This document shows, one piece after another, positions 1,526 to 6,051 of a DNA stretch of 60,295 bases (position 1 is its first letter; every line of letters starts with the position of its first letter). Below the pieces are notes generated by a model that did no database searches, had not been told where the DNA came from, and saw only the letters and a program-made list of their open reading frames with translations. This DNA is from Clostridia bacterium (GTDB taxonomy: Bacteria > Bacillota > Clostridia > Oscillospirales > CAG-272), in contig JAFTLQ010000017.1 in the NCBI GenBank assembly GCA_017455905.1, positions 1 through 60,295 of the forward strand. The letters are read 5' to 3'. The translations under genes and the position numbers were made by a program.

Positions 1526-2344
1526 TTACTTACTGAGCAAAGCGCGGTCGCTGGCAAACTCTTCCCCACTCGTTTGAGAAAATTTCTCAATCAACGCATC
1601 GACCGTCAGGTTGCGCTTCTCTTCTCCCGAAACGTCAAAAATGACCCGACCGTTATGCATCATGATCAAGCGGTTGCCGTGCGCAATGGCGTCCTTCATA
1701 TTGTGTGTTACCATCAGCGCGGTGAGTTTATTCTGCTCGATGAGCTTATCGGAAATTTCCAGCACCTTGGCCGCCGTTTTAGGGTCAAGAGCTGCCGTAT
1801 GCTCGTCCAAAAGAAGAAGCTTCGGCTGTGTCAGCGTAGCCATCAAAAGCGTCAATGCTTGACGCTGACCGCCCGAAAGGAGTCCGACCTTGGCGGTCAT
1901 ACGATCCTCAAGTCCGAGATCCAACATCGCCAGCATGTCACGGTACTGCTTACGCTCGGCCGCCGTAATGCTCCATTTCAGCGTACGAGTCCGTCCACGT
2001 CGGGCAGCGATAGCCAAATTTTCCTCGATCTGCATATTGGCCGCGGTTCCCGTCATGGGATCCTGAAATACGCGTCCAATATACTTGGCGCGCTTGTGCT
2101 CAGCAAGCTTCGTGACGTTGATGCCGTCGATGAGAATATTCCCCTTGTCGATCGGAAAGGCGCCTGCCGCCGCATTAAGGAGCGTAGATTTTCCGGCACC
2201 GTTACCGCCGATAACGGTAACAAAGTCACCGGGCTGAAGATCAAGACTCAAGTGGTCAAGAGCGATCTTTTCGTTGATCGTTCCCGAATAAAAGGCTTTG
2301 GTGATCTCCTGCAAGGAAAGCATAGGATTGTTCTGTTCAGACAT
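1526..2344 (-). CDS. ABC transporter ATP-binding protein (aromatic amino acid importer type)
   Basis: Cytoplasmic ATPase of a three-part importer. Visible are Walker A (GGNGAGKST), the Q-loop region, the signature LSGGQRQAL and Walker B (LLLLDEHTA) followed by the H-loop (VTHN). I chose ATG at 2344 (MSEQNNPML) rather than the longer open frame: it has GGAGA upstream and overlaps the permease stop codon in ATGTCTGA, typical translational coupling, giving 272 residues. With the permease and the binding protein it forms the TrpXYZ-like family (KEGG ABC.X4 group) that Gram-positive bacteria place under Trp or Tyr T-boxes. The exact substrate is inferred from that leader, not from this subunit. 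Confidence 0.9.
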   Translation of the reverse strand: MSEQNNPMLSLQEITKAFYSGTINEKIALDHLSLDLQPGDFVTVIGGNGAGKSTLLNAAAGAFPIDKGNILIDGINVTKLAEHKRAKYIGRVFQDPMTGTAANMQIEENLAIAARRGRTRTLKWSITAAERKQYRDMLAMLDLGLEDRMTAKVGLLSGGQRQALTLLMATLTQPKLLLLDEHTAALDPKTAAKVLEISDKLIEQNKLTALMVTHNMKDAIAHGNRLIMMHNGRVIFDVSGEEKRNLTVDALIEKFSQTSGEEFASDRALLSK

Positions 2345-3272
2345 TCTCCCGTTTCTCCTTCCTTTTTTGTTCGTCGTCCGACGTTTGTTTTTCTGCCGAA
2401 GATTTTTTGCCGAATTTGTTAGCATATCTTGATATGCACAAGGCTACGATAACAACGGCCGCCGTCATGATCTTAACGTCATCCGTCGACATATCAAAAT
2501 ACAACACAACGGCAACCACAATGCGGTACAAAACCGCACCAACGACAATACCGCCAAGAGTAAGGAAGAAATTCTTTACCTTAGAAAAGATCGCCTCACC
2601 GATGATGATGGATGCAAGACCGATAACGATCGATCCGACACCAAGGTTAATGTTGGCATATCCCTGATACTGACAAAGAAAGGCGCCGGAAAGCGCAATA
2701 AGACCGTTGGACAGGGCAAGACCGATGATCTTCGTCGTGTCCGTATTGATGCCCTGCGCACGGCACATTTTTTCATTGATACCCGTCGCACGGATGCCGG
2801 CCCCCAGCTCCGTTCCAAAAAACCAATACAGTGCTGCCATGACAAGCAAGCAAACGCAGGTGCCGAGGATAAGAGAAAGAGTCGTCTTGTTGATATCCAG
2901 GGCGGAGGTCAGCGTTGTGTAAAGCGTCGGAACACTGTTCAACTGAATATTGGCCGAGCCCATAATATGCAGGTTTATGGAGAAAAGCGCTGTCATCGTC
3001 AGAATACCGGAAAGTATGGGCGGTATTTTGAGCTTCGTATGAAGCAAGCCGGTCACCGTACCTGCCACGCATCCCGCAAGAAAGGCAATAAGGATAGCCA
3101 GCACGGGATTCATGTTTTTTGTTAAAAGAATCGAGGCAACCGAGGCACCGAGGGTGATACTTCCCTCGCAGGAAAGATCAGCAAAATCAAGAATGCGGTA
3201 AGACAGGTAGACGCCGAGAGCAAGCAATGCCCAAATAAGCCCCTGTGCTATACCTTTTAATACAAAATCCAT
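2337..3272 (-). CDS. ABC transporter permease (branched-chain/aromatic type)
   Basis: A 311-residue integral membrane protein with about eight hydrophobic segments, of the BPD_transp_2 class. The start FVLKGIAQGLIWALLALGVY and the motif DFADLSCEGSITLGA are typical of permeases next to ABC_sub_bind lipoproteins. The tail (from about residue 285) is highly charged and cytosolic. The gene starts 99 nt after the binding-protein gene, across an intercistronic hairpin, and overlaps the ATPase start. It would form the membrane channel for the same substrate. The ribosome binding site is weak (AAAGGA about 14 nt upstream), so its level may depend on the hairpin and on coupling. Confidence 0.9.
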   Translation of the reverse strand: MDFVLKGIAQGLIWALLALGVYLSYRILDFADLSCEGSITLGASVASILLTKNMNPVLAILIAFLAGCVAGTVTGLLHTKLKIPPILSGILTMTALFSINLHIMGSANIQLNSVPTLYTTLTSALDINKTTLSLILGTCVCLLVMAALYWFFGTELGAGIRATGINEKMCRAQGINTDTTKIIGLALSNGLIALSGAFLCQYQGYANINLGVGSIVIGLASIIIGEAIFSKVKNFFLTLGGIVVGAVLYRIVVAVVLYFDMSTDDVKIMTAAVVIVALCISRYANKFGKKSSAEKQTSDDEQKRKEKRENV

Positions 3273-3314: not shown

Positions 3315-3345
3315 CGCGAGTGGCAGACATAGTCCGCCACTCGCG
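3315..3345 (-). promoter_or_regulatory. Intercistronic hairpin between binding protein and permease
   Basis: GCGAGTGGC (3316-3324) pairs exactly with GCCACTCGC (3336-3344) with no immediate U-tract on the minus strand. Such hairpins commonly protect the 3' end of the abundant binding-protein message so that it exceeds the permease message; that role is inferred. Confidence 0.6.
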
Positions 3346-3371: not shown

Positions 3372-4412
3372 TTATTCGCCCTTGTTGACGGAATGCACAA
3401 GGGCTGCAGCATTGGCGAGAACATTGTCAGTAGGAATATAGATCGCATCAATATCCTCTTTTGCAAGAGCGGCAAGCGCGCTTTCAATATCGTTCATATC
3501 AACGATACCCTTTTCGACGTACGTATATCCCTTTTCGTCACAATGCGCTTTGGCAAGATTGATCTGCATGACGGAGTTCGTCTCGGCGGAGGTATAGAGG
3601 AAACCGACCTTAATGTTGTCCTTGCCAAGAAGCTCGGCGATAAGATCGATCTGCTTTTCAACAGGGTTCATATCGGACACGCCCGTGACGTTGCCGCCGG
3701 GAGCAGCGAGGGATGCAACGAGGCCTGCATCAACGGGGTCGGTAACGGCGTTAAAAACGACGGGGATCGCCGTATCGGCTGTAGCGGTTGCTGCCGCCTG
3801 CGAGGAGGAGGTAGCGATCGTGTAGATGAGATCTACGTTCTGAGAAACGAAGTTCTCTGCAATCGTAACATTGTTGGATTCGTCGCCATTAGCATTTCGA
3901 TCAAGGATCTGCACCGTTTTGTCAGCGGCATCCATACGGACAGACAGCTGATCCTGAAAGCCCTTATTGGACTGGTCGAGTGCTACGTGCTGCACAAGCT
4001 GCAAAATACCGATGGTAAAATCAGCGCCCTCCGTCACAATGGCCGTTTCCACGCGCGTTACCATGGAGGTCTGTGCCGTTGTTGCTCTGGAGGAAACAGA
4101 CTCAGGAATGGTAAAGCCGATGTCTGCAGCGACAGTCGTATTGACCGAGAGAGAGGGATTTGGATCGGTCTGAACGGGCATGCTTGCAGGCTCAGCGTTG
4201 CCAAGAAGAATATCGGCAGCCATATCACCCGCCTTTACGCCAAGGCTGTAGTAATCGACACCAAAGGTAGCGACACCGCAACCATCGTTCATGCCGGTCT
4301 CACCGCAGACAATGGGAATGTTATAAGCCGACCCGGCGCACGAGGTCATTGCCGCCGAGGCGAACAGCATAACACAGCATACAAGCATACAAACGATTTT
4401 CTTTGTTTTCAT
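3372..4412 (-). CDS. ABC substrate-binding lipoprotein, circularly permuted TrpX-like
   Basis: A 346-residue lipoprotein: signal peptide residues 1-24 and lipobox MTSC with Cys25. Residues about 131-346 match the canonical N-terminal and middle part of the ABC_sub_bind (PF04392/TrpX) family: FTIGILQLVQH start, IPVVFNAVTDPV, GGNVTGVSD, VEKQIDLI, and IYIPTDNVLANAA. The segment that should follow, IPIVCGETGMNDGCGVAT through FGVDYYSLG, KAGDMAADILLG and the terminal GFTIPES, is instead at residues 32-106, right behind the lipobox, joined by a Ser/Thr-rich linker (about 107-130). The protein ends at VNKGE exactly where the family would continue. So all parts are present once, in permuted order. Strong ribosome binding site AGGAGA; T-box leader upstream. 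Aromatic amino acid binding is inferred from the leader. Confidence 0.9.
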   Translation of the reverse strand: MKTKKIVCMLVCCVMLFASAAMTSCAGSAYNIPIVCGETGMNDGCGVATFGVDYYSLGVKAGDMAADILLGNAEPASMPVQTDPNPSLSVNTTVAADIGFTIPESVSSRATTAQTSMVTRVETAIVTEGADFTIGILQLVQHVALDQSNKGFQDQLSVRMDAADKTVQILDRNANGDESNNVTIAENFVSQNVDLIYTIATSSSQAAATATADTAIPVVFNAVTDPVDAGLVASLAAPGGNVTGVSDMNPVEKQIDLIAELLGKDNIKVGFLYTSAETNSVMQINLAKAHCDEKGYTYVEKGIVDMNDIESALAALAKEDIDAIYIPTDNVLANAAALVHSVNKGE

Positions 4413-4486: not shown

Positions 4487-4745
4487 GAAAAATAAAAAAT
4501 CCGCATTGAGCCTTAACTCAATGCAGAGGCGAATAAGTCGCGGTACCACTCTGCTTTGTATTTTCCTTACGGAAAACACCTTCATGGGCATCCGAGGAGG
4601 ATGTCCGCCGAATACGATCGGAAGTCGTCGCAGGACTCCAAGAATGTAGTTCACGATATGTCGCCTGTTGTCTTTCACCAACCGACAACTCTCTGCAAGG
4701 GAGGGCAAACCGATACTGGTTCTCTTCTTCGTCAAATACGAAAAA
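4487..4745 (-). promoter_or_regulatory. T-box riboswitch leader, probable tyrosine specifier
   Basis: On the minus strand the T-box core AGAGTGGTACCGCG lies at 4539-4552, followed by a terminator stem GCATTGAG/CTCAATGC (4503-4524) and a run of U. Upstream is a stem I with the AGAGA element and a specifier region GTGAACTACATT, where UAC (4646-4648) followed by A fits a Tyr codon. Uncharged tRNA would stabilise the antiterminator and turn on the importer genes. The T-box itself is certain; the Tyr assignment is by eye and could be wrong. Confidence 0.92.
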
Positions 4746-5721: not shown

Positions 5722-5836
5722 GGCGGCTTACTGCTCCAAGTTGCTTGGCAACTTGAAGTTCGACTCCCATAGTTCCCTCCTTCAAAAGAAAACGAGACCC
5801 CTATTGGGGCCTCGTTCCTTTTGGCGGAGAGAAAGG
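5722..5836. repeat. Copy A of an exact 115-bp direct repeat
   Basis: Identical to 5860-5974. It carries the tRNA-Ser terminator hairpin and the last 14 bases up to and including part of the tRNA 3' end (GGCGGAGAGAAAGG on the plus strand), after which it diverges from the tRNA. It is therefore a duplicated tRNA 3' end plus trailer without a tRNA body. Confidence 0.85.
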
Positions 5837-5859: not shown

Positions 5860-5974
5860 GGCGGCTTACTGCTCCAAGTTGCTTGGCAACTTGAAGTTCG
5901 ACTCCCATAGTTCCCTCCTTCAAAAGAAAACGAGACCCCTATTGGGGCCTCGTTCCTTTTGGCGGAGAGAAAGG
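5860..5974. repeat. Copy B of the 115-bp direct repeat, continuous with tRNA-Ser
   Basis: Identical to copy A, 138 bp away. This copy runs into the intact tRNA-Ser gene and holds its real terminator, a GCCCC/GGGGT hairpin at 5929-5955 followed on the minus strand by TTTTCTTTT. Confidence 0.85.
5929..5955 (-). terminator. Terminator of tRNA-Ser
   Basis: AACGAGGCCCC-AATA-GGGGTCTCGTT on the minus strand followed by TTCTTTT, within 10 nt of the tRNA CCA end. The same hairpin occurs again in repeat copy A. Confidence 0.8.
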
Positions 5975-6051
5975 GATTCGAACCCTTGAAACCGTTTTGG
6001 GGTTTACACGATTTCCAGTCGTGCGCCTTAGACCAACTCGGCCATCTCTCC
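5960..6051 (-). tRNA. tRNA-Ser (anticodon GGA)
   Basis: On the minus strand: acceptor GGAGAGA at 6051-6045 pairing with TCTCTCC at 5970-5964, discriminator G, encoded CCA at 5962-5960. The anticodon arm reads ACGA-CTGGAAA-TCGT, giving GGA for Ser codons UCC/UCU. A long variable arm (AAACCCC..., class II) and the T-loop GGTTCGAATCC are present. A good promoter lies directly upstream. Confidence 0.97.

Follow-up and report, generated by a model that had tools for sequence, protein, structure and literature searches.

In the 60,295-nt stretch of gut-bacterial DNA analysed here (hereafter, the window), an ABC_sub_bind (PF04392) lipoprotein carries its C-terminal third directly behind the putative signal peptide and its N-terminal two thirds at the end of the chain. 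Judged from its sequence, the protein is a circularly permuted relative of the PF04392 family, and its segment order is a real, inherited and still selected natural rearrangement. Very probably, it is the working binding lipoprotein of an ABC importer that takes up tyrosine (or tyrosine and phenylalanine) under T-box control, and was permuted once in evolution. The features of the locus are given in Table 1.

Table 1 Features of the permuted binding-protein locus in the window
Feature	Position	Strand	Basis or remark
T-box leader (RF00230)	4522..4738	(-)	84.8 bits vs. an Rfam gathering score of 93, E = 6.7e-19; specifier by eye UAC (Tyr)
Circularly permuted ABC_sub_bind (PF04392) lipoprotein, 346 aa	3372..4412	(-)	Open reading frame, PF04392 and PDB-sequence matches
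Putative signal peptide and lipobox, residues 1–25	4338..4412	(-)	Read from sequence
Moved segment, residues 29–112, canonical C-terminal third (PF04392 210–290), including E38 and Y54	4077..4328	(-)	
Linker, residues ~108–130 (~23 residues)	4023..4091	(-)	5-residue overlap with the moved segment as searched with Pfam
Residues 131–346, canonical N-terminal two thirds (PF04392 2–205)	3375..4022	(-)	New C-terminus ...VHSVNKGE
Intergenic hairpin, binding-protein/permease spacer	3315..3345	(-)	99-nt spacer, z -4.89
Permease (PF02653 BPD_transp_2)	2337..3272	(-)	Profile match
ABC ATPase (PF00005)	1526..2425	(-)	Profile match; true start may lie inside the listed open reading frame (by eye)

Swapped segment order in the lipoprotein

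As encoded, the window protein exceeds the PF04392 cut-off (202.1 vs. 25.9 bits) in two stretches that are swapped relative to the profile, the better one placing residues 134–341 on profile positions 2–205. When the segments were searched alone, the C-terminal one (residues 131–346) scored 154.7 bits and the moved one (residues 29–112) 52.6 bits, covering complementary, non-overlapping parts of the profile (Table 1). A colinear match fails for the encoded order and was obtained only after reordering: with the segments rejoined in the canonical order, a single stretch covered positions 2–290 of 293 (215.7 bits). All three PDB sequences found at E ≤ 0.001 (3LKV, 3LFT and 6HNI) gave swapped alignments, with the query from residue 133 to 336–344 aligned to the N-terminal part of their chains and from residue 26–31 to 105–113 aligned to the C-terminal part. 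A profile built from 18 permuted proteins was likewise swapped against 6HNI in the single alignment inspected. Because the profile and PDB matches are both swapped and complementary, the swap is real. The initial annotation had claimed a circularly permuted binding lipoprotein at this locus and proposed alignment to PF04392 and to solved structures as checks; both alignments confirm it, and in place of the weak or canonical-order profile similarity that it named as a possible refutation, the matches are strong, complementary and swapped.

The cut falls between PF04392 positions 205 and 210, ahead of the last ~80 residues; from the topology of class I binding proteins, this is presumably a loop of the second lobe before the last strand. 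Upstream, a ribosome binding site (AGGAG) was recognised by eye before the gene, and Cys25, which we take to be the lipobox cysteine from its motif, is invariant in all 18 aligned permuted proteins. The linker had been described as a Ser/Thr stretch. There is indeed a linker between the two segments, but it is not plain filler, given that positions V118, A124 and G129 are invariant among the 18 proteins.

Recurrence of the permuted gene among relatives

The search for the same order in related genomes, also proposed in the initial annotation, recovered it in 19 distinct genomes. Within a sample of the genus, 5 of 69 genomes (the window's own genome, G047, G020, G023 and G036) matched the permuted protein over all or nearly all of its length, and a family sample yielded it in 16 of 395 genomes and 10 of 71 genera, including one match with a run of unread residues (G209) and one partial match with an in-frame stop (G316). 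The own genome and G023 are common to the two samples. A weak match in the genus sample (G001) covered query residues 53–164 at E = 3.7e-4. From a scan of named genomes, 80 of 106 loci were retained, and 18 of these (L052–L069) have the permuted order; identical contig numbers and positions indicate that they represent largely the same genomes as the family-sample matches. The permuted relatives are ~62–78% identical to the window protein. Deer, sheep or water buffalo gut is named as the source for 13 of the 18 public loci and, as far as record titles tell, all permuted sequences come from metagenome-assembled genomes. No permuted gene was found outside the family in 394 genomes of the order, 391 of the class and 398 of the phylum (overlapping samples, E ≤ 1e-50, with at most five candidates per genome scored).

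Several candidates that spanned both segments were set aside as not permuted. G207 (locus L039) of the family sample is a tandem array with one stop between the copies, while in the phylum sample G1380 was reported with two in-frame stops and was read as a tandem array (no frame of at least 550 aa in its region, L147), and G1427 encodes a fused double protein (L146). Apparent open frames of ~660–708 aa in the genus and family samples were also rejected: in the four loci checked (L006, L039, L043 and L045), no frame of at least 450 aa is open. A frame-broken permuted copy was seen (L069 and L038). The L069 record is named Candidatus Colimorpha enterica, placed in Bacteroidales by NCBI, and its short contig is perhaps misbinned or its label wrong.

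With the frame-broken L069 excluded from alignments and trees, the window protein and L052–L068 (n = 18) align along their length, the identity per column averaging 75%. Substitution rates were estimated for nine chosen pairs out of 153 possible. The N segment showed dN of 0.04–0.15 with dS of at least 0.70 in all nine pairs, and the moved segment showed dN of 0.06–0.20 with dS of at least 0.71 in the seven pairs for which dS was estimable; many dS values exceed 1 and are close to saturation. Purifying selection acts on both segments, and the linker evolves faster (dN 0.13–0.51).

The claim that each segment occurs once, with no leftover copy, also held. Searches for a second copy were negative in the own genome (55.8% complete) and within loci L052–L068 (tblastn, E ≤ 1), and the 3' spacers of these 17 loci contained no trace of the moved segment. 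Because ~44% of the own genome is missing, a canonical paralogue may lie elsewhere in it. Such canonical-order paralogues, with 33–41% identity, were present in 6 of the 17 permuted genomes searched (by locus, E ≤ 1e-5).

Phylogeny and route of the permutation

The main tree comprised the window protein, L052–L068 and 80 canonical proteins with the segments set in a common order, excluding loci with the match on the minus strand or without a neighbouring second segment. In this tree, the product of a quick search with a midpoint root for drawing only, the 18 permuted proteins lie on one side of a branch (SH-aLRT 98), the canonical-order protein L070 (CAMAGA010000037.1, an uncultured Clostridia metagenome-assembled genome) is their sister (99), and the permuted group plus L070 sits among other canonical sequences. 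A more careful tree of 24 rows, with a long-branch warning among the outgroups, supported the permuted clade at 98/95 and its grouping with L070 at 91/86. On these phylogenies, the permuted form is an inherited clade and not a one-off, and a single permutation from a canonical ancestor is the simplest reading. Permuted copies from genus g1 (window, L053, L054, L060 and L062) do not group as a clade (p-AU 0.0016, in a test picked after inspection of the tree), and the gene is patchy within the family. Either spread by horizontal transfer or repeated loss would account for the two patterns.

An assembly artefact, in which tandem-gene reads were collapsed and the end of one copy was joined to the start of the next, might be suspected from the metagenomic origin of the sequences and from the tandem arrays of relatives. 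However, the same cut, linker and operon occur in other assemblies at the divergence given above, the permuted frame is open and under selection, dN being far lower than dS in both segments, and no second copy was found nearby. Misassembly, which the initial annotation had listed as a possible refutation, is rejected on the recurrence in relatives, and its probability is negligible. A different origin, by fusion of halves derived from two genes, was left open by the authors of TpMglB-2, a permuted binding protein of Treponema pallidum whose permuted part and its counterpart are identical at only 13% of positions (PMC4990184). Against such a source for the window protein, a comparison of best hits among 101 loci gave L070 as the top canonical match for each segment in all 18 permuted proteins, and it is 63% identical to the window protein in each segment. 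The shared closest relative and the equal identities argue against fusion of unrelated halves, which we consider highly improbable. Fission of the gene at the cut, with refusion in the opposite order, would be a true circular permutation and would account for the clean cut, given that the 3' spacers of the 17 loci hold no remnant of the moved segment. No split pair of N-only and C-only genes was recognised in the loci examined, whereas tandem arrays and one fused double protein do occur, and we regard this route as unlikely, if less so than a fusion of halves.

Instead, the permutation probably arose by tandem duplication and loss of both ends. In this scheme, a tandem duplicate would have been fused as N1-C1-N2-C2, and loss of N1 after the signal peptide and of C2 from the far end would then have left signal-C1-linker-N2. 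As a second copy has left no remnant around the permuted genes, duplication is a step that we infer. Among the 62 non-permuted loci (L070–L131), the N segment is followed by the C segment in 49 and the N match stands alone in 13, where the C part may fall below the threshold. At least two N-segment matches were counted manually in 20 of the 62 loci, and in 3 of the 19 loci that make up the clade closest to the permuted proteins. A single 674-aa frame from a different family of the phylum (L146:1688–3712) encodes two complete ABC_sub_bind-like proteins in a row, and this double protein is the kind of intermediate that duplication with loss of both ends requires.

Transporter context, ligand and known relatives

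As initially claimed, the binding protein is accompanied by a partner permease and ATPase (PF02653 and PF00005; Table 1). Both genes lie downstream in 17 of the 18 public permuted loci, and the contig ends in the 18th. The spacer hairpin may keep the mRNA of the binding protein at a higher level than that of the remaining operon. Similar hairpins were recognised by eye in 8 of 17 spacers (L052, L055, L056, L058, L059, L063, L065 and L068). The spacer 3' of the permuted gene in L064 (L064:7042–7411) is 370 nt long and contains short tandem repeats.

T-box control, the other regulatory element of the initial annotation, was supported by the RF00230 match in the window and by matches at E ≤ 0.01 in 13 of the 17 permuted loci searched (~1.5 kb upstream; L037 and L038 left out). 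Seven of the 17 exceed the gathering score, and no match was present within ~1.5 kb upstream in the other four. The specifier codons, read by eye at what we take to be their position in the leader, are UAC (Tyr) in 6 of the 13, including the window, and UUC (Phe) in 7. No T-box was found in the five canonical loci searched, of which L071 has hardly any upstream sequence; the locus of L070 gave no T-box match. Sub-threshold matches to Rfam V_AS7 (threshold 90) were seen near permuted loci, at L036:3148–3316 (70.6 bits) and L033:3892–4029 on the minus strand (49.7 bits). Elsewhere in the window, two identical 115-nt direct repeats (5722–5836 and 5860–5974) are spaced 138 nt from start to start, the second overlapping the end of a tRNA gene (5963–6051).

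The closest guide to the ligand is CD0873 of Clostridioides difficile (6HNI/6HNJ/6HNK), described as a tyrosine-binding class I lipoprotein of an ABC importer (PMC6816091). It is a sequence relative of the window protein over both segments, but in canonical order. In CD0873, Glu-263 bonds to the tyrosine hydroxyl, Val-235 and Pro-236 hold a water at this hydroxyl, and Tyr-279, which replaces a smaller Gln of the tryptophan binder SP1069, is shared with the phenylalanine binder VC_1101 (PMC6816091). Counted along the 6HNI alignment, with spacings that match the published numbering, Glu-263 and Tyr-279 correspond to E38 and Y54, and Val-235 and Pro-236 to I326 and P327. E38 and Y54, whose counterparts set the side-chain preference of CD0873, do not vary among the 18 permuted proteins and are also present in L070; the permuted proteins combine, like CD0873, a Glu on the hydroxyl side with a Tyr that leaves no room for tryptophan. 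Since Tyr-279 also occurs in VC_1101, it is the Glu that indicates tyrosine. Tryptophan was set aside as the ligand on the Tyr/Phe specifier codons and on the TrpX equivalog NF041285, whose cut-off of 390 is missed by the window protein (246.9 bits) and by canonical L070 (260.1 bits). The ligand is likely tyrosine or phenylalanine, and a tyrosine (or tyrosine/phenylalanine) importer is the best reading of the specifiers, the conserved E38/Y54 and the missed TrpX cut-off. The specifiers do not settle the ligand, since they are split between Tyr and Phe despite the invariant E38, and T-box regulation and ligand may not be matched one to one.

The permuted chain would fold like a canonical two-lobed class I binding protein, with the linker bridging the ancestral C- and N-termini. 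Tyrosine would bind between the lobes, in a pocket formed by the front of the chain (E38 and Y54) and its very end (I326–P327). Pro-236 and Glu-263 are 27 residues apart in the canonical chain; their counterparts sit near opposite ends of the permuted one. Just 7 residues separate Cys25 from Pro33, compared with the 18 disordered N-terminal residues reported for CD0873 (PMC6816091); if the fold is canonical, this short-tethered lipid anchor would hold the second lobe instead of the first. One could go further and propose that the permutation was adaptive rather than neutral, the move of the tether from the first to the second lobe altering how the protein sits on a single-gene (presumably homodimeric) permease and creating a re-tethered importer class that was kept by selection and passed between genera, a proposal that we consider doubtful. 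The lipoprotein might also have become a surface or sensor protein that no longer feeds the transporter and is merely retained in the operon, as its canonical relative CD0873 is described as an adhesin in addition to binding tyrosine (PMC6816091). Such a loss of transport function is hard to credit, given the invariant E38 and Y54 and the permease and ATPase genes kept in the window and in all 17 public loci with contigs long enough to include them. A working binding lipoprotein of the importer remains our preferred reading.

The arrangement has parallels in described systems. In the trpXYZ system of Streptococcus suis, a binding protein, a permease and an ATPase are under T-box control (PMC9382623), as in the window. 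TrpX (NF041285; SP1069, 3LFT) is a sequence relative of the window protein but belongs to a tryptophan system and, in 3LFT, has the canonical order; the window protein scores below the TrpX cut-off, and the specifier of its T-box reads Tyr. L070 has the same gene order (binding protein, permease, ATPase) but is not permuted and lacks the T-box match noted above.

Natural permutation of a binding protein was initially noted as rare, and this stands, but it is not without precedent: TpMglB-2 (Tp0684), which has been crystallised, is a type I binding protein with a natural circular permutation, and the class name type Ic or cluster Bc was proposed for it (PMC4990184). It was the sole natural case recognised in the open-licence literature, and no permuted PF04392/TrpX protein was recognised there, within an incomplete coverage of that literature. 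Like the window protein, TpMglB-2 is lipid-anchored, naturally permuted and encoded in a cluster with permease and ATPase genes (PMC4990184). At the sequence level only, the window protein is of type Ic, being a circularly permuted type I binding protein, but it does not share the type Ic cut: in TpMglB-2 the first three N-lobe strands were moved to the C-terminus (PMC4990184), whereas in the window protein the C-terminal ~80 residues were moved to the front. TpMglB-2 is, furthermore, a glucose binder of the MglB kind (PMC4990184), whereas the window protein belongs to PF04392 and its ligand is likely tyrosine or phenylalanine. The permuted part of TpMglB-2 is, at the identity reported (PMC4990184), almost unrecognisable by sequence, unlike that of the window protein. 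The window protein thus differs from TpMglB-2 in family, likely ligand, cut and a moved part that is still recognisable by sequence.

A domain search names the family of such a protein but masks the swap, which is a warning for annotation. In PF04392, a permuted clade, an unpermuted sister at 63% identity, tandem arrays and a more distant fused double protein are all visible in one protein family. With all of these in view, the route of the permutation, its effects on stability and binding, and anchoring by the other lobe become directly testable.
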